Origin: Rhodococcus sp. H36-A4
GTDB lineage: Bacteria > Actinomycetota > Actinomycetes > Mycobacteriales > Mycobacteriaceae
Direction: 5' to 3'
NCBI RefSeq assembly: GCF_027158005.1
Contig: NZ_JAPVLQ010000010.1
Span: 1-64,000 of the forward strand
Length of the DNA: 64,000 bases
Numbering within the stretch: position 1 is the first letter of the stretch; every line of letters starts with the position of its first letter. The position numbers and the translations under genes are program-made. This document shows positions 19,038 through 50,410 of this stretch, in pieces. The notes beneath the pieces are model-generated. The model was not told the DNA's origin. It did no database searches and saw nothing but the letters and a program-made list of their open reading frames with translations.

Positions 19038-21095
19038 ATGTTGGATTTGAGCTCGCTGGCAGCTGAGGAAGTCAAAGACTGTGGTTGGGTAGAGCTGTTT
19101 CCGTGGCTCGACGATTACGTCTCCGAACGCGCATCGCTGCTCGAGCGTCTCGGCACCGACGAGTGGTGGCTCGAGGATTCCCCTCGTACAACTGCTGAGG
19201 GTACGAGTCTCGAGAAGCTGCTGAAAGAGCTATCGGAACTGTTCGTTGCTGGACACAAATCGTTGGCGTTGGCTCTCGCTTTCCCATCTCTCGATCCGGA
19301 CCTTCCCGTCAGCGCTTTGGTCCTGGGTGCTCGCGCCGCCACATTGGTCGGTCGACTCACAAGCGGCGCGACGGTGCGCGACCTTCTGAGCCTGTCAGTT
19401 CACGACGCTTTCAAGATCAAAGGCACTTCGGAGGGCACCGTACGCGAGTTGGTCGACGGGTTACTCGGATGCGCTGTATTGGTCGAGCCCTCGGCTGGGG
19501 CCGCGGCCGACGTACGGGTCACGACGCAGCCCGCTGTCATCCAGTTGGTCGATGATCTGGCCGCGTTCGCCTATTGGCGCACGGTGCGGGGGATGAGCGA
19601 TCGGCCCCTCCTGACGGTGTCCATTGATGATGAGGCTCCCGAGCAGGTGCAAGAGGTGGCGGCTCGAATTGCGGCTTTGACGCCCCTCGACCTGCCGGCA
19701 CCGCGCCCAAATGATGCAGTCGACGAAATCGAAAATCTGGCCGAGCAGTTGGATGATCGCGAAAGTCTCATTCTGCGTGAACGGCTCATGGCTGCGGAGA
19801 AACAAACGCTCGGCGCGCTGGCCGTCAAACTCAACTTATCGGCCGGACGGGTCAGTCAACTCGAGTCTGCCATGAAAGCTCGCTTCAATTCGTTCTGTGG
19901 CTACGGGACAGCAGTTGGGAATCTGCTGGCCAGCATGCGTGTGGAGATTCAACCGGTTGCTTCGCTCGATCGACTCCTGGAACTGCATCCGACTATTTCA
20001 TCGACGGTTCCTTCTCTGGGGGTCCCGCTGTGGCTGGTACTGGACCGTTTGGACGACTACTTCGATGTCAAAGATGGCTGGGCGGCCGCACCTGACGTTG
20101 GGGCCGCGAAGCGTCGTACTCTTTCGTTGCTCGAAGACCTCGAGTCGGACAATGGGGTCGTCGACCTCGACGAGGCAACGGTTGCTCTATCGATGGACCA
20201 CGGTGAGTTCGAGTCGTGGCTGCAGTGGTGCAGTGTGCCTGTCATCGGCGGCCACGCCTTGCTACGAACCAAGCGAATCGCAGACCACGCGGTCGGTGCT
20301 CTGGAAGCGCTTGGCGGACCGCGTTCGGCGAGCGAGCTACGCGAACTGGTAGATCCTGGTAGAACCGTCGAAGGAGTCGAAAGGTGTCTTAGTTCCGACG
20401 CTCGAGCGCGGCGCGACACCGACGGGCAATGGCACCTTGTGGAATGGGCGGCAGCAGTCGCCGTGATCGAAGGCACGGTGCCCGAAGCGACGTTCCGAAA
20501 AGACGAGAGTGGAGCTGTTCGCAGGCGAACGCAGGGGCGCGCCAAAACTCCTGACAGCACTCGAAGGCTGTATCGAATCGGCATCGGCTGGCGGTATCGC
20601 GTAGTGGTGACTGGCGATCACCTTCGGGGGTCCGGCTTCAGCTTGCCTGCCGGTGTAGCGACAGCTGTTGGGTGTGAGCGCGGCGAGACCGTTGAATTAG
20701 CCAGTCGCCTGGGAGAACAGGCCATCAGATGGACGGGAGCACAACCCACGATCGGATCCATTCGGAGGTTCCTCGCCGAACTGCCCGTCAAGGTGGGCGA
20801 CTCCGTCTTCCTCGACTTCGCTGCCTCGCGAGAATTCGACGTCGCGGCCGCTGCCGCAGTACCTGAAGACGCAGACCCGTTGCGTCGTGCGTTGTCTTTG
20901 ATTGGGCACTCCGCACCCATGTCGATCGCCGAACGCCACCTAATCCGAGTACTGGCCGACGCGATCGGAATGGCAGGTGAAACGCGCCCTCGGCGATTGC
21001 TCGGAGCATACGAAGCTGCAAGTGAAGAGGCGGTCGTGGAACTGCTGGAGACGGCATGGATGCACGCCAGCTCGACAGATGAGGTCAAAACGTGA
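19038..21095 (+). CDS. Sigma-region-4-like HTH protein, first gene of the MutL/Z1 operon
   Basis: The ATG at 19038 follows GGAGAAGGG; the frame is open to 18957 but the extra residues look unnatural. Of 685 residues, about 230-295 resemble sigma-factor region 4 (DDRESLILRERLMAAEKQTLGALAVKLNLSAGRVSQLESAMKARF in full), a helix-turn-helix usually contacting DNA. The segment around 525-600 (FSLPAGVATAVGCERGETVEL...PTIGSIRRFLAELPVKVGDSVFLDF) looks like a small beta-barrel, possibly DNA binding. No RNA-polymerase-binding region 2 is evident, so it is not a normal sigma factor. The next gene starts within its stop (GTGA). I infer the DNA-recognition subunit of the operon. Confidence 0.6.
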   Translation: MLDLSSLAAEEVKDCGWVELFPWLDDYVSERASLLERLGTDEWWLEDSPRTTAEGTSLEKLLKELSELFVAGHKSLALALAFPSLDPDLPVSALVLGARAATLVGRLTSGATVRDLLSLSVHDAFKIKGTSEGTVRELVDGLLGCAVLVEPSAGAAADVRVTTQPAVIQLVDDLAAFAYWRTVRGMSDRPLLTVSIDDEAPEQVQEVAARIAALTPLDLPAPRPNDAVDEIENLAEQLDDRESLILRERLMAAEKQTLGALAVKLNLSAGRVSQLESAMKARFNSFCGYGTAVGNLLASMRVEIQPVASLDRLLELHPTISSTVPSLGVPLWLVLDRLDDYFDVKDGWAAAPDVGAAKRRTLSLLEDLESDNGVVDLDEATVALSMDHGEFESWLQWCSVPVIGGHALLRTKRIADHAVGALEALGGPRSASELRELVDPGRTVEGVERCLSSDARARRDTDGQWHLVEWAAAVAVIEGTVPEATFRKDESGAVRRRTQGRAKTPDSTRRLYRIGIGWRYRVVVTGDHLRGSGFSLPAGVATAVGCERGETVELASRLGEQAIRWTGAQPTIGSIRRFLAELPVKVGDSVFLDFAASREFDVAAAAAVPEDADPLRRALSLIGHSAPMSIAERHLIRVLADAIGMAGETRPRRLLGAYEAASEEAVVELLETAWMHASSTDEVKT

Positions 21096-22585
21096 GGGAA
21101 CTCGAGATCGTAGGCACCGTCGAGGCGCCACCCGACCCGTCGCTGGCGAGTTCGATCGGGCTCCATCACACGCTTGCTACCGCTCTTGCAGACTTGATCG
21201 ACAACAGCATCGACGCACGCGCGCGTCACATCCTCGTGCGTTTCCTTCAGCGCGGCACATCGGTCACTGGGGTGCGTGTGATCGACGACGGGGTGGGTAT
21301 GGACTCCGAAACGATCGACGGTGCAATGACCTTTGGACGCCGTCGCGAGTACGAGCCGCGCGCGCTGGGATACTTCGGTGTCGGGATGAAAGCGGCTTCG
21401 TTGAGCCAAGCGTCGACGCTGGTTGTGTGGTCGCGTGCCGAGTCGAGTAGTGCACAGGGTCGTCGTATCGATCGTGATGCGCCGCATCGAGTCTCGACCA
21501 TCAGCACCGAGCAAGCGGAACTCGAACTGGCCCGAGCGTACCCGCGATTTCCGTTCGACACGGGGACCATCGTCGAGTGGCAGGGGATAACCACGTTCCT
21601 GCGCTCCTCAGACGCCGACGAGCAGACGAGTTGGCTCGAGCAGACAAAGCAGGAGATCGCCGACCATATCGGGATTGTGTTCCACCGCTTACTCTCGCGT
21701 GGTGAGATGTCCATATCGCTCGACACTTTCGACGTGGAGGGGCTGGGGGCAGGATTCCGCACACCGATCGATCCGATCGACCCATTCGCGACACCGCGGA
21801 CCGGAGCCGCGGGATACCCGAGAACGCTGCCCGTTGAGCTCGACGGGGTGACGCTCGCAGTCACGGCACACATCTGGCCGGCGCGCAGCTCGCTGCCGCA
21901 GTTTCGGCTGTACGGGGCTCCGGGACGTGACCATCAGGGCCTGTATTTCTACCGCAGCGACCGGCTACTACAGACCGGCGGATGGAACGGTATCGTGCTT
22001 CCTCGGCCGGACTATGGACTTGCACGGGTGATCGTCGATCTGGATCCGGCTGTCTCCCAACATCTTGCGATAAACCCGGAGAAGGCTGGTGTCACCGTCG
22101 ATGCCACTCTCACTGCAGCGTTGGAGTCCGCTCTAGCTTCCGGAGGGTTGCTATCAGCTGCTGAGGTCGCGGTTCGTTCTGCACGGAGTCGACAATCACG
22201 GCCCGTCGAGATAGTTGAACCGAACAAGGGCTTGCCGGAGGATTTACTCGACGCCTTCGCTGATTCGTTTGAGTTCAGCGAGTTTCAGGATCAAGTGGAC
22301 ATCGGATGGCGGGCACTCTCTCGAGACAAGTTTTTCGAAGTCGACTTGAAGTGTCGCACGCTGTGGATCAATGCACGGTTTCGGCGGGAGCTCCTCGGAC
22401 ACCGCAGCTACAACAGTACCGATGCCCCAGTGTTGAAGACGCTTCTGTATTTGCTTGTGCATCAAATGTTTCAAGGTGCGCGTGACAGTCACAGCAGTAA
22501 ACAGGCTGAACAAATGCAAGTGTGGCAAGACGTGCTGATTGCCGCATTATCGGCTAGGCGCCTCCAAGAGAAAGATAAATTGTGA
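21092..22585 (+). CDS. MutL/MORC-type GHKL ATPase
   Basis: A 497-aa protein with a Bergerat ATP-binding fold. The N box is DLIDNSIDA (34-42, Glu usually at this site replaced by Asp34), the G1 box DDGVGM (65-70) and the G2 box GYFGVGMKAASL (93-104). This class, homologous to MutL and eukaryotic MORC ATPases, was described in restriction-modification-like gene clusters together with Z1 helicases. ATP binding would drive dimer clamp closure on DNA. Both ends overlap neighbouring genes (GTGA at 21092 and 22582), so the three proteins are made together. The C-terminal half (about 370-490) has no recognised domain. Confidence 0.85.
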   Translation: MRELEIVGTVEAPPDPSLASSIGLHHTLATALADLIDNSIDARARHILVRFLQRGTSVTGVRVIDDGVGMDSETIDGAMTFGRRREYEPRALGYFGVGMKAASLSQASTLVVWSRAESSSAQGRRIDRDAPHRVSTISTEQAELELARAYPRFPFDTGTIVEWQGITTFLRSSDADEQTSWLEQTKQEIADHIGIVFHRLLSRGEMSISLDTFDVEGLGAGFRTPIDPIDPFATPRTGAAGYPRTLPVELDGVTLAVTAHIWPARSSLPQFRLYGAPGRDHQGLYFYRSDRLLQTGGWNGIVLPRPDYGLARVIVDLDPAVSQHLAINPEKAGVTVDATLTAALESALASGGLLSAAEVAVRSARSRQSRPVEIVEPNKGLPEDLLDAFADSFEFSEFQDQVDIGWRALSRDKFFEVDLKCRTLWINARFRRELLGHRSYNSTDAPVLKTLLYLLVHQMFQGARDSHSSKQAEQMQVWQDVLIAALSARRLQEKDKL

Positions 22586-25500
22586 GTACAGATCTGGTCG
22601 AAGCCACTGCGCGCGAGTTCACACCGTTCAAACCCGATGATGTCGCTCGGCAAGTCAGCGTCCGTCTCGGGCGCGAGGTCACGATCGAGGATATCGTGGC
22701 GGTCTTGGTCGACGAAAGCGCTGTTGCCGCGCGGTCTGCGGCAGCTACCAGCTTTAGAGGGTGGGATGCCGAGATCGTCGAGTCGTGGGCCGAAAAGACC
22801 GCCGCAGGCAGCGTCGAGCGACGAGAACTGATCTACTCGCGACTCGGTGTCCCATCTGAAGGTTACGAAGTGCTGGATACGCAGTTCCCACGTGAGGGCG
22901 TACCTGTGTTGATCGCTGATCCTGACGTATGGACTCCCTGGTACACCGTCGAGCGACGCACAGCACACGACTTTTATTGGCGTGCGTACAAGCGCGTTCT
23001 CGCCGCGCAATGGAATGACGACTCAGCGGTCGGGAAGCTGGATGTCGCGACGACCAATGTTGTTTCGCGACTGGCAGATCCGACGAGAGACGAGCCCTAT
23101 CAGTCCAAGGGGCTGGTTGTCGGATACGTCCAAAGCGGCAAAACAGCCAATTTCAGTGGCGTGCTGGCAAAGTCCATGGATGCGGGGTACCGGCTGATCA
23201 TCGTGTTGACCGGAACTATAGAACTGCTACGTAGTCAAACTCAACGACGTCTCGACAAGGAGTTGATCGGTCGTCAGAACATCGGTGCGGACAGTGACTA
23301 CGAGAACGACGAGGACTGGATAGCGCATCAATTCTTAGAGCACGAGGTGGATCCGAACACTTCCAATACTGTTCCGGCAATTCGTCGTCTGACGGGTGCT
23401 GATTTCGACTTCAAGGCTCTGGGGAAGGGTTTGGGCGCGCTTCACTACGAGTTCGTCGATCATTCTCTGCCTCTCAATCATCCAAAAAATTTGTATCCCA
23501 CCAACATTCGTATTGCGATTGTAAAGAAGAACTCGACCGTGCTCAAGAAGCTCGTCGACGATCTCCGGAAGATTCCAACCGATCTTGCCCAGATTCCGGC
23601 CTTGATCATCGACGACGAGGCCGATCAGGCGTCGGTCAACACGGTCAACCCAGCCAAATTCGTCACGGAGAAGGTGGAGCGCACCGCAATCAACGAGCGA
23701 ATCTCGGACTTGCTAGCACTGCTCAAACGCTCACAGTACGTCGGCTATACGGCAACGCCGTTCGCGAACGTCTTCGTCGACCCTGTAGACAGCGAGAACA
23801 TCTTCCCCAAGGACTTCATCCTCAGCTTGGAGCGTCCGACGCCGTACATGGGGGGGAGAGACTTTCACGATTTCGACGACGATCTCGACGAGTCTGCGAA
23901 GACCCCGCGCAACTCCAATCAGAAGGCGTACGTGCGGGACCTGCGCGCAGACTGGGACGACGATTCCAGGTTCGCCGAGCAGCAACAGGCTCTGGACTCT
24001 TTCGTCCTTGCCGGTGCGATGAAATTGTATCGAGAGTCCAAGAGCGACAGAAAATTTCGACACCACACTATGCTTGTCCACCAGTCGGTGAAACAGGCTG
24101 AGCATGCAGCGTTGGCAGATGAGTTCAAACGGTTGTGGAAGTCGTCAGGTTACTCGCAGCCGTCGGCACGTCCACGGCTCGAGAACTTATGGAATACCGA
24201 TTTCGGCCCGGTCAGCGCGGTTAGGGCCGAAGGTGTGGAAGTCCCTGAATCTTTCGATGAGCTGTATCCGTTCGTCGGCGTAGCCCATCGCAAGATCTCC
24301 GAAGGCGTCTCGCCTGTCATCATAGTCAACGGTGCGGCGGAGAAGGACTATGCGCAGGATGCACTGGACTTCCAGGAGCGCCCGGTATGGAAGATCCTTG
24401 TCGGTGGTGCGAAACTCAGCCGGGGGTTCACCGTCGAAGGACTCACCACTACGTATTACACCCGTAGGACGCCACAGGCAGACACTCTGATGCAGATGGG
24501 CCGTTGGTTTGGCTTTCGTCCAGGCTACAAGGATCTGGTACGTCTGTTTATCGGGCGAAATGTTCCTGGCCCGGCAGGCAAGGACTTCGATATGTACAAG
24601 GCTTTCGAGTCCATTGTGCAGGATGAGGAGGAGTTCCGTAGCGAGCTGGAGCGATTCGCGTCCGTGAATACGCTAGGCGAGCCCATGGTGACGCCACGCG
24701 ATGTCCCGCCGATGGTGTTTCAGTCTCAACCCTGGCTCAAACCGACTGCTGCGAACAAAATGTACAACGCCGAGCAGGCCTACCGGGGAGTCGGTGGGCA
24801 AGCGTTCAGCTTCACCATGCAGAGGCCGCGTGGCAAGGATGGAGTTCACAACGGAACGCATTTCGACGCTGTCAAGCCGCTGCTACGAAACCTCGGCGCG
24901 AAGGATTCGTTTCGTCTGACCAACAGTCTTGGCATCGAGCAGCAGTTCGAAGCTCGCCACGGCATCATATCGGCGAGCACAGTGCTCGCTGCAGTCGAGA
25001 AATTCGTTTGGGACGAGAATTGGGACTTTGAGCCACATCTCGCTGCGATGCGAACCGCAATAGAGAATGGACTGTTGGAAGATTTCGCAATTCTCCTGCC
25101 TCAGCCCAAGAATCGGCCCCAGCTCGAGATCGTGGGGTGGCACGAAAAGTTGCCGATCGTCAACCGTCGTCGGCGCGACCGCGAGTACCGCAGCGGTTTC
25201 AGTGGTACCGCTGTACGCGAGCGCCAAGCGATCGAACACATCGCGGGAAGCCCGGGGAAGAATGGCGGCCCAGTTGCCGAGTCCCTGTACCGGAAGACCC
25301 GAGGCGGTCTGATCTTGCTGTTTGCCAACGATCCCAAGGACGGATCGCGGCAATTCAATCGAGCGCAGACGGGACCTGTCAGTCCCGTAGACTTCGCAAC
25401 TCTGTTTTCCTACGCGCTGCCGTACGCGGCGGAGCCCACGCCGAAGATCGGCTTCCGGGTGAAGAAGTCCGGGGCAGGCGCGATCGTCGATGCACGCTGA
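22582..25500 (+). CDS. Z1-domain superfamily helicase/endonuclease-like protein
   Basis: A 972-aa protein. The helicase part has Walker A GYVQSGKTAN (181-190) and Walker B IIDDEAD (about 342-348), a TATPFANVF motif III-like segment, and the Z1 region with LSRGFTVEGLTTTYYTRR (from ~613) and LMQMGRWFGFRPGY. The Q-S-G-K-T-A-N P-loop and the R-G-F / M-G-R-W-F-G motifs are diagnostic of the Z1 family found with MutL-like ATPases in defence loci. It probably remodels or translocates on foreign DNA. No separate nuclease domain is evident. GTG start within the preceding stop. Confidence 0.9.
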   Translation: MSTDLVEATAREFTPFKPDDVARQVSVRLGREVTIEDIVAVLVDESAVAARSAAATSFRGWDAEIVESWAEKTAAGSVERRELIYSRLGVPSEGYEVLDTQFPREGVPVLIADPDVWTPWYTVERRTAHDFYWRAYKRVLAAQWNDDSAVGKLDVATTNVVSRLADPTRDEPYQSKGLVVGYVQSGKTANFSGVLAKSMDAGYRLIIVLTGTIELLRSQTQRRLDKELIGRQNIGADSDYENDEDWIAHQFLEHEVDPNTSNTVPAIRRLTGADFDFKALGKGLGALHYEFVDHSLPLNHPKNLYPTNIRIAIVKKNSTVLKKLVDDLRKIPTDLAQIPALIIDDEADQASVNTVNPAKFVTEKVERTAINERISDLLALLKRSQYVGYTATPFANVFVDPVDSENIFPKDFILSLERPTPYMGGRDFHDFDDDLDESAKTPRNSNQKAYVRDLRADWDDDSRFAEQQQALDSFVLAGAMKLYRESKSDRKFRHHTMLVHQSVKQAEHAALADEFKRLWKSSGYSQPSARPRLENLWNTDFGPVSAVRAEGVEVPESFDELYPFVGVAHRKISEGVSPVIIVNGAAEKDYAQDALDFQERPVWKILVGGAKLSRGFTVEGLTTTYYTRRTPQADTLMQMGRWFGFRPGYKDLVRLFIGRNVPGPAGKDFDMYKAFESIVQDEEEFRSELERFASVNTLGEPMVTPRDVPPMVFQSQPWLKPTAANKMYNAEQAYRGVGGQAFSFTMQRPRGKDGVHNGTHFDAVKPLLRNLGAKDSFRLTNSLGIEQQFEARHGIISASTVLAAVEKFVWDENWDFEPHLAAMRTAIENGLLEDFAILLPQPKNRPQLEIVGWHEKLPIVNRRRRDREYRSGFSGTAVRERQAIEHIAGSPGKNGGPVAESLYRKTRGGLILLFANDPKDGSRQFNRAQTGPVSPVDFATLFSYALPYAAEPTPKIGFRVKKSGAGAIVDAR

Positions 25501-25533
25501 ACGGCCGAGTACCTATATGAGGTGGATACTGCA

Positions 25534-26388
25534 ATGGCAAAAGTAATTACCACTATCAGCTTGAAGGGTGGAGTCGGAAAGACGACTGTCACAGCGGCTC
25601 TCGCGGAGTTCATGGCGTCGGAGTTCGGCAAGCGAGTCCTCCTCGTGGACCTGGATTCGCAGATCAACCTGACGACGATGCTGATCGGTGAAGAACGGTG
25701 GATCGACCTCAATGCGAGGAAGCTGACGATTGCAACGCTGTTTGCTGACGCTGTGAATGGGACCTCGGACTTCGATCTGCATTCGACGATTCAAAAGGGT
25801 GCGTCGACTGTGAAGAAGATCAGCAATGTGGACTTGCTGCCGTCCTCTCTCGACCTGATCGGGTTGCAGGAAGAGTTGAGTGCGCTGCGGGTCCGCGACG
25901 GCTCTCCCGTAGCAGGCGTCGGGCTACTCGGCGCGGCCCTCGAACCAGTGAAAGACTTCTACGACTTCATACTCGTGGATTGCCCGCCCAACGTCGGTCC
26001 GGTGACGTTGAATGGACTGGCGATGGCGGACGGTTACATAATTCCGACCATCCCTGACTTCTTGTCGACCTATGGCATCCCGCAAATTCAGACATATATC
26101 GAGAAGTTCGCCGATCAGCTGGGACGCAGCATCATCGAACTTGGGCTGGTGATAACGAAGTACAAATCCAATTCATCGGTTCACACCACCGTTCTTCGAA
26201 ATTTGCGACGCAACCAAGATATTCAGCACGTACTTCCCCCGTACTTGCCAGAGGCCAACTCGATCGCGATGGCTGCGGACTTCAAGCCATTCGGCACGCT
26301 TCGGGTCAAGTACGGAAACCAGGGCCAGTACGACAAGTTCAAAGAACTTACCAGGACAATCCTCACGGAAGCGCAGGCAAAGCTATGA
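25534..26388 (+). CDS. ParA/MinD-like ATPase in the Z1 operon
   Basis: The ATG at 25534 is preferred over the GTG at 25522 because GAGGTGG lies 8 nt upstream. The 284-aa product has a deviant Walker A (KGGVGKTT, near residue 10), DLDSQ (switch) and LVDCPPN (Walker B), all typical of ParA/Soj ATPases that dimerise on DNA. It lies 33 nt after the Z1 gene and overlaps the next gene (ATGA). A partition role is unlikely without a replicon or parS; I infer an accessory ATPase of the defence operon, perhaps for DNA-bound assembly. Confidence 0.8.
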   Translation: MAKVITTISLKGGVGKTTVTAALAEFMASEFGKRVLLVDLDSQINLTTMLIGEERWIDLNARKLTIATLFADAVNGTSDFDLHSTIQKGASTVKKISNVDLLPSSLDLIGLQEELSALRVRDGSPVAGVGLLGAALEPVKDFYDFILVDCPPNVGPVTLNGLAMADGYIIPTIPDFLSTYGIPQIQTYIEKFADQLGRSIIELGLVITKYKSNSSVHTTVLRNLRRNQDIQHVLPPYLPEANSIAMAADFKPFGTLRVKYGNQGQYDKFKELTRTILTEAQAKL

Positions 26389-26876
26389 CCAACTCGTCCG
26401 AGACCCTTCAGCGAGTCCGTAATGATGAACTGGGCGGTGCACTTCTGAAAGTTGCTGCGGTGGATCCTGTTGCCAGCCAGGTGCTTAGCAGCCTGTTCAG
26501 AGTTCTTGCAGACGAGGCGGCGCGAACACCCCGATTCGCGAAGGCCTTGTCGGCGGCGCTGGTAGTTACGTCGGAGACTCCCGATTCGGCTGCAGTACCT
26601 GCGCCGCCCAAACCGGCCCGAAGGTTGCCGTCGAAGGCGAAAGTTGCCCGTCAGCCCGGGGTCTTCGACCCGTTCGATGTGTTGCGCCACTCCGGCGAGC
26701 AAGCGTTGACGGAGAAGCTTTCGACACTCACGATCGATCAGCTGCGGGACATCATTGCAGAGCAAGAGATCGACACGCACAAGGAGAGCGGCCGCAAGCG
26801 CAAAGCGGAGGTGCTCGTGGCATGGACTTTCGACCGGGTGAAAGCCCTTGCCTCGAAGGGAAGTGCGTTCAGATAG
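26385..26876 (+). CDS. Small partner of the ParA-like ATPase (SAP/Rho-N-like C-terminus)
   Basis: A 163-aa protein whose ATG overlaps the ParA-like stop. Residues 1-65 are helical, the centre is Ala/Pro/Lys-rich (PAPPKPARRLPSKAKVARQ), and the last ~60 (LSTLTIDQLRDIIAEQEID...KSGRKRKAEVLVAWTFDRV pattern) resemble a SAP- or Rho-N-type helix-extended-loop-helix that binds nucleic acid. A basic linker plus such a domain fits a DNA-binding adaptor stimulating the ParA-like ATPase. The domain assignment is by eye and tentative. Confidence 0.55.
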   Translation: MTNSSETLQRVRNDELGGALLKVAAVDPVASQVLSSLFRVLADEAARTPRFAKALSAALVVTSETPDSAAVPAPPKPARRLPSKAKVARQPGVFDPFDVLRHSGEQALTEKLSTLTIDQLRDIIAEQEIDTHKESGRKRKAEVLVAWTFDRVKALASKGSAFR

Positions 26877-27151
26877 CGGAGTGAATCTGAGCAACACTTC
26901 GGTGCGCGTCCGCTGGACCCGCGTAAGAGTCGCGCCTGGTTACAGGGTTGACGTTGGCAGGTCGACCCCGAGGTTCGCAGCCGGACGTGTCGAGAGCTGC
27001 GGGTACTTGCCGAAACCACCACTCTCGGCGAGGCGTGAATCGGCGATGGACGTTTTCGGCTCACGCATTCACAGTGACGAAATGTAATGGTTGAGTGGAC
27101 ACCTGCCGGGCTGCGTCGAACCGCGGCGCGCAGCTGCTCCCTGCTCGTTGC

Positions 27152-27825: not shown

Positions 27826-28833
27826 CTAAGCGACGTCGACGTGCCACATATCTCGATGCGCACCAAACCAGCTGCGCTGCTTGACGGTGGATTCGATTTT
27901 CAACCGCTGTCCATCGAGTTCGTTGTAGAGGGGATAGGGGCGAAGCGAGTTGTGCACAGAGATCCGCGAATTATCCAGCACGGCGATCTTTCCCAGGTCG
28001 AACAATCGATGGAGATCGCGACGTAGCAGGATACCGCCCTCGTCGTGGTGATCTCCGACCTTCGCGTAGCTGTAGAGGTGGGCGGCTTCGAGTACCTCGT
28101 GTGGCATGTCTCCGGAGAACGCGCAGTTCGACGCATACCGGTCCATCAGATGCGCACGAAAAGCGGGTTGTCCGAGCCGAACTCGGGTGATGCGCTCGGT
28201 GAAACCCCCGCTCAACTGAACCGATACCGATCGGAGCACGCGCATACCCCGCTGTCCCAGGTCTGTGGTCAATGCAGCGTTGAACGCCGGCCAATCCAAC
28301 TCGCGAATGCTCAGCTGAGACTTAGGACTTCTACAAACCGATCGAAGCATCTCGCCACTGAGCTCACCTGCCAGATCGATCCACGCTTCACCGTGATGTG
28401 TTCGATAGGTCTTTACGTCGATCATTTCTGTGGCAGGTTCTTCGAATTCGTTTTTGCACTGGCCACACTTATATCGTGGCTTCAATTTTATTCGTTCGTC
28501 GAGAGAGCGCCCGGGACCGCAGTATGGGCACTTCTTTAGTTCTTTCCTCGCGAAACCTGTTTCTACACGTTCGACGACGGACGCCCCTAGCAGTCGCTTC
28601 TGGTCCCACACGACAAGCGCGTCACCGACACCGATGTTCCGACTGTTGGGAACTTGACTGTCACTGACGTACTGCGACGAAGGGTCGTCGTCGTAGGCGT
28701 GACCGCCGCGACCGCCACTCTGATCGCTCTTCGCCAGTACCAACCAGGCTCGAGAAATTGCCCCGGTGGCGGACGGCCAGACGATATCCACTAGCTGAAG
28801 CGGTTCGTACGCAGCACGAAATTCATTGGCCAT
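27826..28833 (-). CDS. McrA-like HNH endonuclease with zinc ribbon
   Basis: A 335-aa protein in three parts. Residues 1-95 (YVSDSQVPNSRNIGVGDALV, LLGASVVERVE) resemble a PUA/EVE-like fold that could read modified bases. Residues ~97-125 have two CxxC pairs (CPYC, CGQC), a zinc ribbon. The C-terminal part (~235-290) is an HNH nuclease (CAFSGDMPHEVLEAAHLYSY ... GGILLRRDLHRLFDLG). This layout is seen in type IV, modification-dependent McrA-like enzymes and stands without a methyltransferase, as expected for that type. The reader-domain assignment is inference. Confidence 0.7.
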   Translation of the reverse strand: MANEFRAAYEPLQLVDIVWPSATGAISRAWLVLAKSDQSGGRGGHAYDDDPSSQYVSDSQVPNSRNIGVGDALVVWDQKRLLGASVVERVETGFARKELKKCPYCGPGRSLDERIKLKPRYKCGQCKNEFEEPATEMIDVKTYRTHHGEAWIDLAGELSGEMLRSVCRSPKSQLSIRELDWPAFNAALTTDLGQRGMRVLRSVSVQLSGGFTERITRVRLGQPAFRAHLMDRYASNCAFSGDMPHEVLEAAHLYSYAKVGDHHDEGGILLRRDLHRLFDLGKIAVLDNSRISVHNSLRPYPLYNELDGQRLKIESTVKQRSWFGAHRDMWHVDVA

Positions 28834-29151
28834 TTGTATCGGTTGTAGCGTGGCCTGCGCAAGCCAGCGACGCTTCAGCTTCTACTCGTTGATGGCTGCC
28901 CCGCTACTGCAGCGGGGTATCTGCCACTTCGCGGTTGACCCGGTTCATTCATCTGAATGAATTTCGATCCCGGACCGGATTCGTTCGCAGAGTTCAAAAT
29001 TGCCGATGTCTCGAAACGCCGCAGATAGGGCTATTTTCGAGCTCTTCTAGGGTGGTGGCTGGTCAATCCGACCACTGAGCATCGTCCAACTTTGTCACCC
29101 ACCCCCTATAGGTTGGGTCCTGTTCAAGTTTGGCCGAAATGTGAGGATCCG
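28834..29151. promoter_or_regulatory. Divergent intergenic region with palindromes
   Basis: This region separates the minus-strand HNH gene from the plus-strand helicase gene and should contain both promoters. A perfect inverted repeat TTCATTCA-TC-TGAATGAA lies at 28944-28961, a plausible operator. A GC hairpin CCCCGCT-ACTGC-AGCGGGG lies at 28899-28917. GTGAGG before 29152 is the ribosome binding site of the helicase gene. No firm -35/-10 could be assigned. Confidence 0.45.
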
Positions 29152-32100
29152 ATGTCGGTTACTGATGACCCCGAGCTCCGGGGGCGGGTTCGTCGTCTGC
29201 TCGAGTTTCTTCGCGAGACTGTGGGTGCTCAGTCGAAGCCGATTCGCCGGTACGGCGTTGATGCCCGTGTCGAGTGGTTGTTCGACGATTCCCGACCTCT
29301 CGACGTCAATACCGACGTCGCGCCCGGTGACGTGGCGGTTCGTATCCCGCGCACCAGCATCGAGCAGCCTCCCGGTCTCCCTGCGGAGCTCGAGCAGTGG
29401 GTCGACGACACCACCACGCCGCCGACCGTCAGAGCCGACGCACCGACCGAGGCCCATGAGTGGCTTCAAGACTGGACCTCGTGGTCTCTGGATGACCGTG
29501 AACGTAGGCCGTTCGCCGAGCTGTTCCGTTCGGTCGACCTCATGCTCCACGACCTCGGCACTCAGCCCGAGTCGCTCGAACTTGTCATCGCCTCTGGGTA
29601 TCTCGACGCCACTGTCGGGGACCAGCGGATCTCGACACATCTGATCACTCAGCAGGCCAGTATCAGTCGCGAGGACTCCACCGGCGACTTGCTCGTCACC
29701 GTTGCGCCCGCCAGCTCCCCGCGGCTGGAAGACGTCCAAGTCCTGCTCGACTTGCAGGGTTTCGACCGCGCCGGCTCGAAGGTGCTGCACCGCAGCTTGT
29801 CCGAACTGGTGTCGTCGTCGCTGTCCGCGGATATCCCTCGGTTGCTCGGCCAGTGGGCCACGTCGGCCCTGGCGCAACCGCTGACCGTCATCGCCGATCA
29901 CGACAAGCCCGTCGATTCCACCGCGGACACTCTGCGGATGTCACCGGCGCTGGTTCTACGCACACGTGGCGCCTATGCCCTCGCGTCGTACTACGAAGCA
30001 ATGCTCGCTGCGCTCGATGACGGCGCACCCGTTCCGGTGGGGCTTTCGCAGCTCGTGGAGACGTACGACGACAACACCCGTCGTGACTGGCTCGACTCTC
30101 ACGTCAGTGACACCCCCAGCGCCGAGCCGCTCTTCCCACTGCCGGCCAACCGCGCCCAGGCCGGTATCTACAACCGCGTCATGAACGACACCGGCGTCGT
30201 CGTCGAAGGCCCTCCCGGCACCGGCAAGACCCACACGATCGCAAATTTGATGTCCGCGTTGATGGCTCAGGGCCAGCGCATCCTCGTCACCAGCGAGAAA
30301 GCTCAGGCGCTGCGCGTCCTCAAGGACAAGCTTCCTGCCGAACTGCAAGATCTGTGCGTCTCCGTCACCGACATGGCACGCGGGGGATCGGCCGAACTCG
30401 ACGAGAGCGTCTCGACCATCGCCGCTCGTAAAGCCGCGTTCGACGCGACCGAGTCCGCGCGCAAGATCCGTTCCCTCGCTGCCAAGCGGATGGGCACCAA
30501 AGAGCGCCGCTACAAACTCACCAAGCAGATCGGCCTTGCGCGCTCCTCCGAAGCAGAGATCCACACCTTCTCACCGCAGTATTCGGGAACTCTTGCCTCG
30601 ATCGTCACCAAGCTCAACGCGCAGGAGAGCGACCTCGGGTGGATACCAGGTCCGCTCCACACCGAGACCGTGCCGTTCGACGACGCAGCCTTCGCTTCGC
30701 TGTTCACGGAGCAGTCCGACGAGGTCAGCCTCCCGACGGCCGACGAGGTCCGTAGCTTGTGTGCCCGAGCCTCCGGGAACGCGTCCGACTCGATTTTCGA
30801 TGACATCGATCCGGTTCAACTGCAGTACATCCTGCCGTCTGCGCAGGCCCTGATCGACCGCGCACGGGCCATCGACTCCTTCGGCCCGGCCTATGCGGTT
30901 CTGGCCGACGGGATCCTGTCCGGTGCGCTCGGTACGTTGTGGTCGCGTGCTCAGACGGTCACGGCGATGCTGTCGGTCGCCGTGAGCGCCGATACCGCAG
31001 TTGGCTCACATCAGGTGACGACGCAGGTTGCCACGAGGCAGGCACTCAACGCGTTCGATGCCCTCGCCAAGCTCTACGAGAGTGGCCCGTTCGACACGAT
31101 GCGCTGGCTCCGCACGCCCCACGAACACGGCGTCGTCGACAAGCTCGATGCACACGCCACCGTCGACGGTACAGCCGCGACGCAGGCCACCGAACTGCGG
31201 CTCGTCACCAATCACATCCGGGCCCTCATTGCCGTCGACGATGCCGCACACCTGTTGCGCGGTATCGGAATCGAACTGCCGATCGAACCGTCGGACAGTC
31301 GGGAGCAGCAGGTCAACACCCTCCACCTCGTGTGGAACCAGGTGCTGGCGACGGGCAGCATCGCGACTGCTCGCGACGAACTCGTCGGCGCTCTGGGTGC
31401 AGTCGTTCCATCCGTGCCGTCGGTGACGACGCTTGCCGAGGCAGTGGCCCTCGCAGGCGAGGTCTCCGCCCTCACCGACCGCTCCGACGCGTCCACCGCA
31501 CGTGACGAGCTCGAGCGAGTGGCCGAGCGATTGTTGTCCGATCCGACGCTGCCCGATGGGCTCGCGGACGCAGTCAGAACCGGCGATGTCGAGAGCTACG
31601 AGCGGCTCGCCTCGTACGTTCAGCCGGGCAGCACCGATACCACCGCGCTCGACGCCTTGGCCGAGCACGCGCCCACCCTGGCCCGCAGCCTGTCCGAGGG
31701 TACCGATTGGGCTGCTCACGCCGGCACGTTCACTCGTGCTTGGGCGTGGCGCTGGACCATGCAGTCGATCGTGGCCATGCAGCAGCCCGACCAGAACGAC
31801 AATCTCGACGCGGAACTCGACGCCCTCGATGAGGAGATATCGTCCTTGACTGCGCAACTCGCGGCGGAGCAGGCGTGGCAAGAATGCTTGCAGCGCATGA
31901 CCAGTCGCGAGGTCACGGCGCTGCGGGCATACCAGGAGAACATGTCCAACGCCGGTCTCGGCACCAGCAGTCTCGCGCAGCGCTACCGTGTCGCGGCCCG
32001 TGCGGCGATGCAGGATGCGCAGACGGTCGTGCCGGCGTGGGTCATGCCGATTGCGCAGGTGTTGTCGTCGATTCCGCCGCAGCAGAACGCTTTCGACGTC

Positions 32101-34080
32101 GTCATTGTCGACGAGGCCAGTCAGGCCGAGATCACCAGCATGTTCCTGATGTGGTTGGCGCCGCGTGTCATCGTGGTTGGTGACGACAGGCAGTGCGCGC
32201 CGGCCTCGATTCAGAATTACACCGTCGAGTCCGTCATGAATCGTCTCGATCACTACCTTCCGGAGGTTCCGGTCAGCACACGCTTGACGCTGACGCCGCG
32301 GTCGAGCTTGTTTTCGATGCTGCGCACCCGGTTCGGTGATTCGGTGAGGTTGCGTGAGCACTACCGATCGATGCCGGAGATCATTCAATGGTCCTCGACT
32401 CAATTCTATGGCGATCAGCCGTTGGTGCCGGTGCGTCAGTTCGGGGCGGATCGGCTTGCACCGCTGCGCAGTACGTTCGTCGAGGATGCACTCACGTCCG
32501 GTTCGAGTACACGCCTGTCCAATGCTGCCGAAGCGAACGCACTCGTCGACCAGCTCGCCCTCTGCCTTGCCGAGCCAGACTACGAAGACAAAACCTTCGG
32601 TGTCGTTGTCCTTCAGGGCGCAGCCCAGGCGGATCTGATCAGGTCGCTGATCTTCGAGCGGGTGGCGTCGGAGCAAATCGATGAACGACGCATCCGTGTC
32701 GGCACGCCACCGGACTTCCAGGGCGACGAGCGTGACGTGATGTTCCTGTCGATGGTCATCGCACCCGGCTCGTCGTCGAAGGCATTGACGAACGACATGT
32801 TCAAACGCCGCTTCAACGTCGCTGCCACGCGTGCGCGAGATCAGTTGTGGCTGTTCCATTCCGTGACAGCTGACAGCCTGTCGGCCATTGATCTACGACG
32901 GTCACTGCTGTCCTATGTCGAGGCTGCGCCGACAGTTCCCGTTCCTGCCATGCCCGACGCAGTGTCGCCGATTAACCCGCACCCTGACTTCGGATCACTG
33001 TTCGAGCAGCAGGTGTTTCTGGCGCTGCGGGAGCGCGGCTATCACGTCAACCCGCGGGTCGACGTCAACGAGATGACGATCGATCTGGTGGTCACGGGTG
33101 CGGCTGTGCGGGTGGCGATCGAATGCGACGACGACACTGAAGTCGACGCCTACGAGCTGTTGAACCGTATGGAGCGCGAGTTCGAACTGCGGCGCTGTGG
33201 CTGGCTGTTCCAGCGGATTCGGGCGTCGGACTTCGTCCTTGATCGTGAACGAGCCCTCGACACCATCACCGAACTACTCGATTCGGTCGGCATCCTCCCC
33301 GACGAGGTTGCCGTAGTCATCGAGGGATCGGGCAGCTCCACCTGGATGCCGATCGCGCTGGAACGTGACCCCGATGACGCAGAAGCCGACGAGGAAGCAG
33401 TCGAACTCGTCACCGACGAGGCGCCGGCGCCGTCTCGCACCGTCGATGTCGATCTCGCGCCCTTGCCGGAGGTCATCGAGACGGTCGACGAATCCGAGGA
33501 TCCGCACGAGGCCGGTGACCACGAAGACTCCGAGGTCGAGTTCGAGGACATCGACGCTGTTGATCCGGTACCGAAGCCGGTTCGGACGATGCCGCTCGAG
33601 GATCTCATTGCGGCCATTCGGTATTCGCTGCGGCGCAACAAGTTTTCGATCGCGCAGACCGTGCAGGATTGCGAGGTCACGCCCGAGGCGGTTCAGCACG
33701 CGGTGAAGGAGATCAAGTCCCGGGACGACGCGCTGAAAGCGTCGAAGAGGAGACCGCCTCCTCCGACCCCGGATGCGATGCCACGACGGCAACGTCCCTC
33801 TGAAGTCGCGAGCGATCCCGTTGCGGTGTCCGGAAGCCGTTCTTTGCAAGCCGAATTGGATGCTCTGCCGGTGGCGTCGTGGGCGGGGGCGCGTGAGATT
33901 GCGGTCGCCGCGGCGAGGCCGAATGCGCCGCTGACGTTGGAGCGTTGCCAACGGGTGACAGGGTTGTCGCGGACGAAGGCGGATCTGTTGTTGTCGGATC
34001 TGGTGTTGTTGAAGAAGTTGGTCACACGTAAACGTGAGGGTGTCGAGGAATGGGTTCGGCCACAGGGGTTGACGCTATGA
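29152..34080 (+). CDS. SF1 helicase fused to a Vsr/MTES-type nuclease (1642 aa)
   Basis: The ATG at 29152 follows GTGAGG; the frame is open upstream to 29092. Walker A GPPGTGKTHT is near residue 352, Walker B VIVDEASQAE near 982, motif V-like DFQGDERDV and motif VI RRFNVAATRARDQL near 1215. A nuclease domain follows (~1280-1385: FEQQVFLALRERGYHV...MTIDLVVTG...VAIECDD), matching the Vsr-like MTES_1575 PD-(D/E)XK pattern. Then comes a very acidic ~90-residue linker and a C-terminal winged-helix-like tail. The long gap between Walker A and B is typical of DUF4011-type defence helicases. The next gene is coupled (ATGA). Likely a DNA-degrading antiphage effector. Confidence 0.8.
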   Translation: MSVTDDPELRGRVRRLLEFLRETVGAQSKPIRRYGVDARVEWLFDDSRPLDVNTDVAPGDVAVRIPRTSIEQPPGLPAELEQWVDDTTTPPTVRADAPTEAHEWLQDWTSWSLDDRERRPFAELFRSVDLMLHDLGTQPESLELVIASGYLDATVGDQRISTHLITQQASISREDSTGDLLVTVAPASSPRLEDVQVLLDLQGFDRAGSKVLHRSLSELVSSSLSADIPRLLGQWATSALAQPLTVIADHDKPVDSTADTLRMSPALVLRTRGAYALASYYEAMLAALDDGAPVPVGLSQLVETYDDNTRRDWLDSHVSDTPSAEPLFPLPANRAQAGIYNRVMNDTGVVVEGPPGTGKTHTIANLMSALMAQGQRILVTSEKAQALRVLKDKLPAELQDLCVSVTDMARGGSAELDESVSTIAARKAAFDATESARKIRSLAAKRMGTKERRYKLTKQIGLARSSEAEIHTFSPQYSGTLASIVTKLNAQESDLGWIPGPLHTETVPFDDAAFASLFTEQSDEVSLPTADEVRSLCARASGNASDSIFDDIDPVQLQYILPSAQALIDRARAIDSFGPAYAVLADGILSGALGTLWSRAQTVTAMLSVAVSADTAVGSHQVTTQVATRQALNAFDALAKLYESGPFDTMRWLRTPHEHGVVDKLDAHATVDGTAATQATELRLVTNHIRALIAVDDAAHLLRGIGIELPIEPSDSREQQVNTLHLVWNQVLATGSIATARDELVGALGAVVPSVPSVTTLAEAVALAGEVSALTDRSDASTARDELERVAERLLSDPTLPDGLADAVRTGDVESYERLASYVQPGSTDTTALDALAEHAPTLARSLSEGTDWAAHAGTFTRAWAWRWTMQSIVAMQQPDQNDNLDAELDALDEEISSLTAQLAAEQAWQECLQRMTSREVTALRAYQENMSNAGLGTSSLAQRYRVAARAAMQDAQTVVPAWVMPIAQVLSSIPPQQNAFDVVIVDEASQAEITSMFLMWLAPRVIVVGDDRQCAPASIQNYTVESVMNRLDHYLPEVPVSTRLTLTPRSSLFSMLRTRFGDSVRLREHYRSMPEIIQWSSTQFYGDQPLVPVRQFGADRLAPLRSTFVEDALTSGSSTRLSNAAEANALVDQLALCLAEPDYEDKTFGVVVLQGAAQADLIRSLIFERVASEQIDERRIRVGTPPDFQGDERDVMFLSMVIAPGSSSKALTNDMFKRRFNVAATRARDQLWLFHSVTADSLSAIDLRRSLLSYVEAAPTVPVPAMPDAVSPINPHPDFGSLFEQQVFLALRERGYHVNPRVDVNEMTIDLVVTGAAVRVAIECDDDTEVDAYELLNRMEREFELRRCGWLFQRIRASDFVLDRERALDTITELLDSVGILPDEVAVVIEGSGSSTWMPIALERDPDDAEADEEAVELVTDEAPAPSRTVDVDLAPLPEVIETVDESEDPHEAGDHEDSEVEFEDIDAVDPVPKPVRTMPLEDLIAAIRYSLRRNKFSIAQTVQDCEVTPEAVQHAVKEIKSRDDALKASKRRPPPPTPDAMPRRQRPSEVASDPVAVSGSRSLQAELDALPVASWAGAREIAVAAARPNAPLTLERCQRVTGLSRTKADLLLSDLVLLKKLVTRKREGVEEWVRPQGLTL

Positions 34081-35765
34081 CGCAAGTAGTGAACCGGTCC
34101 GAGGGGTTGCGGGACTGGCAGAAGGAAGCATTCGAGAAGTGGGTGGCGTCCGGCTATCGCGCGATTGTAGAGGCGGTGACCGGGACCGGGAAGACGCATG
34201 TCGGGTTGGCGGCGACGCTGGATTCGGTCAGCCGTGGCCGTCAGGTCCTGGTGGTGGTACCGAGTATCGATCTACTCGAGCAGTGGTACACGGCGATGGT
34301 GAAGGCGTTGCCGAGTGTGCGGATCGGGCGTCGCGGGAACGGGCACAACGATACGTTCCGGCAGTACGACGTGCTGATCACGACGATTCAATCGGCTATC
34401 CGGCCGGGTGCGCCGATGCCGCGGACCGGCGCGTTGCTCGTCGCCGACGAGGTTCATCGTTACGGCGCAGGTTCGTTCGCGAAGGTGCTGGTCAACCGAT
34501 TCGAGGAACGGCTCGGGTTGACGGCGACATTGGAGCGTCAGGATGACGGTGTCGATACGCATCTGATGCCGTATTTCGAGAACCTGGTGAAGGGTTGCGA
34601 TGCGGCGCGGGGGAGACGCGACGGGATCCTGGCGCCGGTTCGGGTCATGACGGTGGCGGTGCCGTTCTCGGCGGAGGAGGCGGCGAAGTTCGCGGACCTG
34701 GACGAGAAGGCGAAGTCGCTCCGCAACACCCTGATCTTCGACTACGGCTGTGCTGCTGAGCCGTTCGGTGAGTTCATGAAGAATGCGGTGGACCTGAGTA
34801 AGGAAAGGTATCTACCGGCGAGCAAGGTTGCGAGTAGGTACCTGTCGGCGTTCAGCAAGCGGCGCGCGTTGTTGGCCGACTGTGAGGGCAAGTTGCAGGC
34901 GCTCGAGGCGATCACGCCGGGGTTGGCGAAGTCCGAGCGCTCGATCGTGTTTTCGGAGACGAAGGAGTCCGCGACCAGGGGTGCGGATGTGCTCCAGGCG
35001 GCTGGTATTGCGGCGCATCAGTATTCGAGTCAGCTTGATCGCGTGGGACGTACGCGGATTCTGAAGCAGTTCCGGAGTGGTGAGTTGAGGAGTTTGGTGG
35101 CGCCGCGGGTGCTTGACGAGGGCATCGATGTGCCGGCGGTGGATGTCGGGGTGATCATTGCGAGTAGTTCGTCGAAGCGGCAGATGATTCAGCGGATGGG
35201 TCGGATTCTGCGTCTGAAGCCTGATGGTCGGCCAGCGGCGTTCGTGATCATGTATGTGGCGGGGACGAATGAGGATCCTTCGTTGGGTGCGCATGAGGCG
35301 TTTCTCGATGAGTTGACAGGTGTGGCCGAGGAGGTCGTGGACGTCGATCTCGCTGCTGCGGGTGCGGTGTTGGCGAGTTGGTTGGACCAGTCGGCCCCGA
35401 TCATGCCGAAGCCGGTGTTCAGTGAGCAGCCAATCGAGCCGATTGTGATTCCACAGTCGAAGATGATGCCGACGGCGGTGTCTGTGGCGCGGACTCGGAC
35501 GGTGAAGGAGATTCTGTCGGAGGCTCAGTACGGGACGCCGGATCAGCTCGACGGGATCTTACGGTGTATGGCTGCCATCGATGTGCGGGAGGCGGCGGTG
35601 TTGATCCGGCGCTACGGCATCGACGGTGCGAAGCCTCGGACGTTGTCACAGGTGGCGGCGGAGATGAATCTCAAGCGGATGGTCATCGAGAGCCTCGAAA
35701 AGCGGGGGTTGAAGTCGCTGGAGAGGGAGGCGGGAAGGCTACTGAATATAGTGACACGCTTATAA
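34077..35765 (+). CDS. SF2 DEAD/DEAH-box helicase coupled to the SF1-nuclease gene
   Basis: The ATG at 34077 overlaps the stop of the upstream gene. The 562-aa product has an N-terminal Q-motif-like region (LRDWQKEAFEKW), Walker A VTGTGKTH (34-41), DEVH box (124-127), LTATLER motif III and QRMGRILR motif VI near 372. The last ~90 residues form a separate helical domain (REAAVLIRRYGIDG). The arrangement resembles XPB/Res-type translocases. Coupled translation implies a fixed ratio with the SF1-nuclease, probably as a two-component defence system. Confidence 0.85.
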   Translation: MTQVVNRSEGLRDWQKEAFEKWVASGYRAIVEAVTGTGKTHVGLAATLDSVSRGRQVLVVVPSIDLLEQWYTAMVKALPSVRIGRRGNGHNDTFRQYDVLITTIQSAIRPGAPMPRTGALLVADEVHRYGAGSFAKVLVNRFEERLGLTATLERQDDGVDTHLMPYFENLVKGCDAARGRRDGILAPVRVMTVAVPFSAEEAAKFADLDEKAKSLRNTLIFDYGCAAEPFGEFMKNAVDLSKERYLPASKVASRYLSAFSKRRALLADCEGKLQALEAITPGLAKSERSIVFSETKESATRGADVLQAAGIAAHQYSSQLDRVGRTRILKQFRSGELRSLVAPRVLDEGIDVPAVDVGVIIASSSSKRQMIQRMGRILRLKPDGRPAAFVIMYVAGTNEDPSLGAHEAFLDELTGVAEEVVDVDLAAAGAVLASWLDQSAPIMPKPVFSEQPIEPIVIPQSKMMPTAVSVARTRTVKEILSEAQYGTPDQLDGILRCMAAIDVREAAVLIRRYGIDGAKPRTLSQVAAEMNLKRMVIESLEKRGLKSLEREAGRLLNIVTRL

Positions 35766-35864: not shown

Positions 35865-35943
35865 TGTTAGCGGGTTGATTAAAACTCGAGCTTCTGCGTA
35901 AACTGTACTTCAAATAAATTGTTCCAAGCAATCAGGGGGATTG

Positions 35944-37710
35944 ATGGATCGCATTACTGAATCTATAATGAAGCGCTATGCGAAGGAAGCGGGCATTAGT
36001 GAGCGCCCAGAGCATCAGCAATTCGAAGCTTTTGCAGGCTCTGTCTTGCTGCGGGCGGAAGTCGGCCATGATCCGGAGACGTCAATTGACGATTTCTTAG
36101 CGGGCGATGGAATTCAGGGCTACGACTTGTTTGCTACTGTAATAAACGACGAATTAGTGACCGACGTAATTGCGTTGCAAGAGATATGTGTACGCGCTCG
36201 AACTCTGCGCGTGGAGTTTGTTTTTGCTCAGTTTAAAACTTCTCCGTCGTTCAAAACTAGTGACTTTTCAAATTTCGTCGACACTTGCAAAATGATAATA
36301 AAAGATTCGAGTGTGTTGGATCGTCGTGAGTTTCCCTCCATCGAGCTTGTATCGGCTGTATACGACAAGGCTGAGATGTTTAAGTTCAATCCTAAACTTT
36401 CTCTATTTTATGTAACGACTAGCGGTGTTGGCCCGGAATTGCCTGTAAGGCGAAAAGCAGATAGCTCGAAGTCTGACATCGCGCAACTTTCTTTGACCTC
36501 GGCAGTTGATATTCGATTTTTTGGTGCGCCAGCTCTGCAGGCGCGATGGCGGCAGCTTGATCAAGGTACGACGAGGACTATTCGATTTGAGAAGAAGGCA
36601 TCGATGCCTCAAATTGACGGAGTTGTTCAAGCTTATATAGGTATGCTTCCAGCTGAAGAGCTGCTGAAATTGGTTACAGTAGAAGGATCGCCGACACGAA
36701 TCTTGAAATCTGTATTTTACGACAACGTCCGTGATTTTCAAGGAAATGTAGACGTAAACTCCAAGATTAGCGAAACGTTAACTGGTGTCGATCGAGCGCG
36801 GTTTGCAGTTTTCAATAATGGTGTAACGATCGTTGCACAGGAGATCAATAATACAGGCGATACCTTTAGGTTGCTGGATTATCAAGTTGTGAATGGTTGT
36901 CAAACTGTTCATGTTCTACATGAAGCTGCGATGGAGCTTGGCGGCATTGATTCGCTAACCGATGTTTTTGTCCCTGTGAAAATGATCGCGACCAGCGATG
37001 TGGAGGTTGCACGAAGTATTGCGCAGGCCACAAATCAGCAAACGCAAGTCACTGCCGAAAGCCTCCTGGCAAATTCGGAAGTGCAGAAAAGAATCGAAGA
37101 ATATTTCACTGTCATTGATGACACGGACGATTACAAGCTATATTACGAGCGGCGCTTAAAACAGTGGGCTGGAAGTTCTGTTGTTGTCGGAGCTTGGAGG
37201 CTTGTGACAATTCGGCAAATGATTCGTTCTTTTGGCTCGGTGTATCTAAATCAACCCCACACAGCGACGCGGTACTACAATGATTTGCGTGACCAAGCGG
37301 GTAGTCGAATTTTCATCGCTGGTAATGCGCCGGCGCTTTTCTGGGTGTCAGCTTTGTTGTTTTGCAGAATTGAATTTTTGTTTCGGAACGACAAGATCGA
37401 CGCAAAGCTAAAGCCCGTAAAATTTCACATGATGTCCGCAATTTCAAGATCAACTTTAAAGGGTAATGTGCCGCACTCTAAGAATAGTGTAGCCGTCGAG
37501 AAATATATTGCTGATTTACGTTCATTACTTGCGAGTGATGAGCGGCTCATAAAAGCAATTTCCATATGCGCAGATGTAGCGGTGCGCCATTCCGCTACGG
37601 CTTTGTTCGATCGTGACTTTTGTCGGACCCAAGAATCTGCGACGAAGTATTCGATCGCCGCGAGCCGGAGGATACGTATGGAGGATCCAGTCCTGGCTAA
37701 ACAGAAGTGA
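35944..37710 (+). CDS. AIPR-family (abortive infection phage resistance) protein
   Basis: AGGGGGA precedes the start; the ATG at 35944 is chosen over the TTG at 35941. The 588-aa product has the AIPR hallmark FNNGVTIVAQ (near 289) followed by YQVVNGCQTVH (near 313) and QATNQQTQV. AIPR proteins were first linked to lactococcal abortive infection and often sit with Z1/MutL clusters; their biochemical activity is not firmly established to my knowledge. The gene is clearly AT-richer than everything around it (a sampled 60-base line at 36721 is 40% GC), so it was probably acquired separately from a lower-GC donor. It ends tail-to-tail with the minus-strand operon. Confidence 0.85.
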   Translation: MDRITESIMKRYAKEAGISERPEHQQFEAFAGSVLLRAEVGHDPETSIDDFLAGDGIQGYDLFATVINDELVTDVIALQEICVRARTLRVEFVFAQFKTSPSFKTSDFSNFVDTCKMIIKDSSVLDRREFPSIELVSAVYDKAEMFKFNPKLSLFYVTTSGVGPELPVRRKADSSKSDIAQLSLTSAVDIRFFGAPALQARWRQLDQGTTRTIRFEKKASMPQIDGVVQAYIGMLPAEELLKLVTVEGSPTRILKSVFYDNVRDFQGNVDVNSKISETLTGVDRARFAVFNNGVTIVAQEINNTGDTFRLLDYQVVNGCQTVHVLHEAAMELGGIDSLTDVFVPVKMIATSDVEVARSIAQATNQQTQVTAESLLANSEVQKRIEEYFTVIDDTDDYKLYYERRLKQWAGSSVVVGAWRLVTIRQMIRSFGSVYLNQPHTATRYYNDLRDQAGSRIFIAGNAPALFWVSALLFCRIEFLFRNDKIDAKLKPVKFHMMSAISRSTLKGNVPHSKNSVAVEKYIADLRSLLASDERLIKAISICADVAVRHSATALFDRDFCRTQESATKYSIAASRRIRMEDPVLAKQK

Positions 37711-37711
37711 T

Positions 37712-37924
37712 TTACCTTGGAGGTCCGTGCGTGTCGGTGTATACCGATTCCTGACGCCGGCGACCGTAGTGTCTGGAACCCAGCGACTTCGCGGCCGCGT
37801 CGGAGCGACGCCAAAGGGTTTGGCGCAAGACGTCGAGCGCACGATCGGCGGGGTCGGCGGGGTCGGCGGGGTCGGCGTATCGCGGGAGGCCGGTGGTTAC
37901 GGAGAAAGTGCTGAGGTCCATCAT
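37712..37924 (-). CDS. Truncated fourth gene of the DUF6361/PLD/helicase operon (70 aa)
   Basis: An ATG at 37924 overlaps the helicase stop (ATGA), the same coupling used throughout this operon, so a gene once began here. The reading gives MMDLSTFSVTTGLPRYADPADP..., a short repeat-encoded ADP tract, then LDVLRQTLWRRSDAAAKSLG, and ends at 37712 right beside the AIPR stop. It may be the N-terminus of a larger protein cut by a rearrangement, or a real small protein. Function unknown. Confidence 0.5.
   Translation of the reverse strand: MMDLSTFSVTTGLPRYADPADPADPADRALDVLRQTLWRRSDAAAKSLGSRHYGRRRQESVYTDTHGPPR
37842..37877. repeat. Short 9-bp tandem repeat (GGGTCGGCG)
   Basis: Three perfect copies of GGGTCGGCG at 37851-37877, preceded by one imperfect copy, encode ADPADPADP in the minus-strand frame. 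In-frame nine-base repeats can vary in number by slippage without breaking the frame. Confidence 0.85.
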
Positions 37925-40900: not shown

Positions 40901-41052
40901 GCTACGAGGCTCTTGCCCAACCCGGTCTCGTCGGAGACGAGGAACCGCCGGCGCGAGGCCGGTCGGTCGAGCTGCGCCATTACGTGTTCGACGGTGCGCT
41001 GCTGAAACCCCTTGAGCCGTGCAATAACCGGGGCAGCGTCGAAAGTGGTCAT
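37921..41052 (-). CDS. SNF2-like helicase of the DUF6361/PLD operon
   Basis: A 1043-aa protein with ATG at 41052 overlapping the PLD-gene stop. Motifs: Walker A DETGLGKS (41-48), LVILDEFQRF (DEFQ, near 266), LSATPYKPF (motif III), SVGQEGIDFHWW (motif V) and QREGRIDRF (motif VI, near 912). The wide separation of lobes (~500 residues) with a large helical insertion is usual for SNF2-like defence helicases. It should translocate on dsDNA. With the PLD-type protein supplying nuclease activity it could act as a restriction complex. Confidence 0.8.
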   Translation of the reverse strand: MTTFDAAPVIARLKGFQQRTVEHVMAQLDRPASRRRFLVSDETGLGKSLVARGVIARTIEKLQDEPDRGQINVVYVCSNSDLAAQNLSRLDVTGGRHQGIPSRLSLLAKYTRELQPDLDANGVKVNLVSFTPGTSFRTGHQSGQVEERALLFLLLRTVANLTGWNRHAALVLLQGGIASRERFEYHVDELESSLDGPPDPVISDRFLAACQNNGLTATFTDQLERLGHKRDVPSEMAYEVRQLISDMRGELARAGLSVLNPDLVILDEFQRFPELLDASTPEGELADQLFSYPNTRVLLLSATPYKPFTYAEESGDDHHRDFLRTIAFLDTDIADHVAKDLAEYRTAVTQGRPVAELSTRLRATLLQVMSRSERPIGVAGGMLSEHVDIVDDLSATDLLDYVALHRISGLIDGDVSLEYWKSTPYFANFCDGYKLSEQLKKRLKGDDAETLGPAVHALARLDPAAASGTGEVDLGNGKLRALARQTVDAGWWQLLWMPPSLRYLEPSGPYAEAWAQGITKRLVFSSWSATPTAIASLLSQRAGRAAWLGSQREDKGPAGRRGTRSLLNYSVAGGRAESMTTLAMFWPMPGLAKRADPLAAAQRDRVPLSRAVFEADLTRGLRSGTSKYSVSAVAEAARAAIAFEDSLPQALLDDDGLNSRKLIIEALGTGSVGDADDPAGQHGLATHVDEALELIRGGSDVEMASVAPTVAMLAAHSPGNIAWRALHRIAANHPAVTDVGLWRAAATMAAGFRTLFNRPDTIVLLEQLDQNGAYWQKVLRYCAAGNLQAVMDEYLHHIANENQDEIDNDSLMKAAKTVSSALTLLPSTYRAFDPGNPDDAIRMTSRFALRYGGGNTDENVRQPDIRRSFNSPFWPFVLASTSVGQEGIDFHWWCSAITHWNTPANPVDFEQREGRIDRFGGHAVRRNLAHRHGAAMLATNNPWRAAYTLGTDEQADLGDFAPHWVYPGPAKIERHLSPYPLSVDIARLERMKSDLALYRLTFGQPRQEDMLALLRKRGLEAQPEVLAEMRIDLSPPSTNRATR

Positions 41053-44034: not shown

Positions 44035-44447
44035 GGTTGCTCCCCCTAACGATAGGAACACTAGAGTAAAGGTCGTGCTATCGGACTCGAATAATCTCGT
44101 ACCCACCCGGTCAGAGGTCGCCCCGAAATTGGTGGTTGCGTTCGGTATAGCGAGAATGGGAGTCGTGGTAGCGCCAAGGACGTACGCCAAAACGCTGCGT
44201 GGGCGGAGGAACTGTACGCTGCGCGGAGCGAACTGTTTTCGTGTATCGGCCCGCTCGAATTTCGGCGATCGGAGTCGAGACCGGACCAGTCAAACTGATC
44301 GAGTACAAACCGCGCACCATGGTCAGAACCTCACCCCGGCACCTGCCGAGATGGCACTATCGGTTCTGCACGGAGCCTGGAGGCACAAGTTGAGTCTGGG
44401 CATGCCGAGTTGTCGGACGTTGCCCAATCCGGAGGGGCTTGAGTCGA
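44035..44447. other. Divergent promoter region between two defence operons
   Basis: No gene is supported. It separates the minus-strand DUF6361 operon from the plus-strand type III operon and must hold both promoters. GGGGGAG (minus) and GGAGGGG (44431-44437, plus) are the ribosome binding sites at its two ends. No convincing operator repeat was seen. Confidence 0.5.
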
Positions 44448-50409: not shown

Positions 50410-50410
50410 C

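Follow-up and report, generated by a model that had tools for sequence, protein, structure and literature searches.

A Rhodococcus operon resembling an anti-phage system, with a ParA-type ATPase and a small partner

Eukaryotic MORC proteins act in DNA silencing and compaction, and bacterial MORC ATPases are chiefly known from restriction operons. MZA (mzaABCDE) is reportedly an anti-phage system, said to have been described by Gao et al. in 2020. Here we analyse a five-gene operon (positions 19038-26876) in 64,000 nucleotides of Rhodococcus sp. H36-A4 (contig NZ_JAPVLQ010000010.1), hereafter the window. The operon looks like a known kind of bacterial anti-phage system in which a ParA-type ATPase and a small partner replace the usual DNA-cutting and DNA-marking enzymes. 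In comparison to MZA, its first protein is not MzaA, it lacks MzaD and MzaE (which we take to be a DUF4420 protein and an AIPR protein, respectively) and it gains the ParA and small genes. The operon, which an earlier note made from the DNA letters had placed at these same positions, was confirmed there and was found in Rhodococcus, Gordonia and relatives.

The third type of MORC restriction-modification operon (Iyer, Abhiman and Aravind 2008) is similar in combining a MORC gene with an SF2 helicase bearing the motif DThhQXuRhFG. According to sections of PMC2292703, these operons consistently include a restriction endonuclease-fold nuclease gene and frequently a methyltransferase, neither of which was found in the window operon, and ParA is not mentioned in those sections. 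In CglI/NgoAVII restriction the B3 protein also bears a PLD nuclease and a methyltransferase is part of the system, as described in passages of PMC4267653, whereas neither was found in the window operon.

Reader, MORC ATPase and third gene

The first gene, sig (19038-21095, plus strand), encodes a DNA-reader-like multidomain protein of 685 amino acids. The earlier note had called it sigma-region-4-like, and region 4 was indeed found at about residues 230-284, alongside an RNA polymerase alpha-CTD-like domain (about 79-149), a winged helix (412-476) and a B3-like domain (about 515-607). Its identity as MzaA was rejected, as only region 4 was found in it and it did not match NF041931 at E values up to 0.1, a model against which the full sigma-70 from locus L084 reaches 286 bits, itself under the cut-off of 800. 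The second gene (21092-22585, plus strand) encodes a MORC/MutL-type GHKL ATPase of 497 amino acids with intact motifs (HATPase_c_3, 3e-22). Its matches to MzaB (NF041932, 1.6e-30 and 106 bits, far under the cut-off of 850; PADLOC, 6e-23) suggest that it shares a superfamily with MzaB yet is not an equivalog. The third gene occupies 22582-25500 (plus strand), and the operon includes an MzaC-type match (NF041933, 2e-81 and 274 bits against a cut-off of 1500; PADLOC, 4e-63).

The MzaD-type DUF4420 nuclease (PF14390) was missing from the window's genome and from 13 of 14 genomes with the five-gene operon. AIPR was absent from the operon, the sole copy found in the genome lying 9 kb away behind other genes, and was missing from 11 of the 14 genomes. 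The earlier claim that there is no methyltransferase held for the C5 type, none being found closer than 78 kb on the same contig in 7/7 genomes or in the compared loci; for the N6 type it extends to the 25 families, out of 93, that were listed for 106 neighbour proteins, none of them a methyltransferase. Overall, the earlier interpretation of an undescribed variant is partly supported. We consider it close to an even chance (about 0.48) that the operon is a new variant of MZA-like type that needs no methyl mark to act, and whose proteins would perhaps sequester DNA instead of cutting it. The predicted defence role is drawn solely from relatives and genomic context.

The ParA-type ATPase and its small partner

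The fourth gene (25522-26388, plus strand) encodes a ParA-type ATPase of 288 amino acids (AAA_31, 1.4e-38) with the deviant Walker A motif KGGVGKTT, and comparison of relatives places its likely start at codon 5 (MAKV...). It scored far under the cut-offs of partition-family models, and PADLOC matches to PDC-M28B were not accepted as membership since they covered the P-loop only. The fifth gene (26385-26876, plus strand) encodes a protein of 163 amino acids, modelled with N-terminal helices, a low-confidence linker and a weakly supported SAP-like C-terminal domain. For the role of a centromere-binding partition partner, it shows the SAP-like domain only. Searches of Pfam, NCBIfam and PADLOC matched nothing to this small partner, and a Foldseek search gave no hit with E below 0.001; Cdc37 matches (0.017-0.067) were dismissed as noise. 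Promoter and terminator scans gave no signal above chance.

It is unlikely, in our judgement, that the first three genes alone form the defence unit and that the pair joined the operon's end as a selfish or stability module, whether partition-like or regulatory in nature. The pair was present beside 7/7 MORCs of the same clade that were found without using it as bait, and direct repeats were absent from the tested flanks (768 and 291 bases), where one imperfect palindrome (27123-27144) was the sole repeat. Stand-alone ParA-small pairs, chiefly from Proteobacteria, have the same gene order (ParA approximately 44-51% and small protein 27-41% identical to the operon pair), but most carry a helix-turn-helix ahead of the ParA domain that is absent from the operon copies and from others such as L060, L061, L093 and L100. 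No third family recurred alongside the pair in more than four of 38 loci compared, and a family scan of stand-alone neighbours (118 proteins picked from 190 listed) gave at most two members per family.

A second system also argues against such a module. In Speluncibacter and Rhodococcus RD6.2, a homologous pair (50% and 41-42% identical) likewise follows a sigma4-bearing protein, flanked on one side by a PbeA-like helicase that ends in sigma4, itself preceded by an MTES_1575 helicase, and on the other by a sigma-70 gene; in genome G142 a ParA occupies the same place. As the pair is found in the operon and in these helicase loci, and is missing from further copies of the helicase pair, sequence comparison indicates that it is a movable part serving at least two sigma-linked helicase systems.

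About as unlikely is an ordinary restriction system, with its nuclease either supplied by a gene at another site or belonging to an unrecognised family. An HNH gene and an MTES_1575 helicase do lie approximately 1-7 kb downstream in the window, in one genus helicase homologues adjoin all six of the complete MZA-like loci (HNH homologues adjoin two of these), and HNH_2 was matched by 2 of 106 proteins encoded near other five-gene operons. However, blastp relatives of the window HNH protein and helicase were not seen around the operon in L034-L038, L069-L077, L080 and L081, where flanks vary and the L037 and L081 stretches stop just downstream of the operon. Furthermore, none of the five operon proteins had a Pfam nuclease domain at E values up to 0.1, and the weak PADLOC and NCBIfam restriction-enzyme matches of the MORC protein were confined to its ATPase part. 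Cargo positioning is improbable: ParA/MinD ATPases position varied cargos (parts of PMC6328274 and PMC10241942) and the relatives of the operon ParA with solved structures include McdA (2e-13), but the best of them are the segregation proteins ParA and Soj (top 2e-28), and the partner's SAP-like domain suggests DNA rather than protein as cargo.

Neighbouring genes and significance

Downstream of the operon, the HNH protein (27826-28833) weakly matches a phosphorothioated-DNA restriction endonuclease model, and its homologues adjoin helicase-MTES_1575 genes in L169, L171 and L208. A separate gene group, carrying ParA-small in some relatives, opens with a helicase bearing an MTES_1575 nuclease domain (29092-34080, plus strand; Hhe/ProA-like but under cut-offs, from Pfam, NCBIfam and neighbourhoods). 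It continues with a PbeA/dnd_restrict_1-like helicase with a C-terminal Sigma70_r4 (34050-35765, plus strand) and the only AIPR found in the genome, an AIPR/AbiU protein (35941-37710, plus strand; PF10592 1.6e-39, AbiU 348 bits). What comes after the helicase pair differs among relatives: sigma-70, ParA-small-sigma-70 or genes without an assigned family. That ParA-small and AIPR strictly substitute for each other there became less likely, as the next gene is variable, often sigma-70 or a 400-450 amino acid protein without an assigned family.

Sigma-70 genes follow helicase or ParA-small genes in L083 (10365-11879), L084 (10422-11885) and L208. Those of L083 and L084 span regions 1.2-4 and score 281 and 286 bits for MzaA, under its cut-off and under the other curated sigma cut-offs listed, the broad sigma-70 superfamily model excepted. 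In L174 (8965-16074) a reader homologue precedes a PbeA-like helicase relative, a DndD-like ATPase and a dnd_assoc_4 protein, possibly a phosphorothioation-linked system with the same reader. A single 2160-amino acid frame in L177 (8745-15227), with an MTES_1575-type helicase and a reader-like C-terminal part, is an apparent helicase-reader fusion. The window also includes a complete-looking ZacABC (37921-44190, minus strand; ZacC 1052, ZacB 569 and ZacA 428 bits) and, in the same island, a Type III restriction enzyme (50360-53545, 850 bits).

Taken together, the result points to a ParA-small module common to two different sigma-linked helicase systems. A conserved bacterial MORC operon that lacks the usual nuclease and has no C5 methyltransferase next to it, but carries ParA-type parts in their place, would offer a simple host in which to test the link to eukaryotic MORC.
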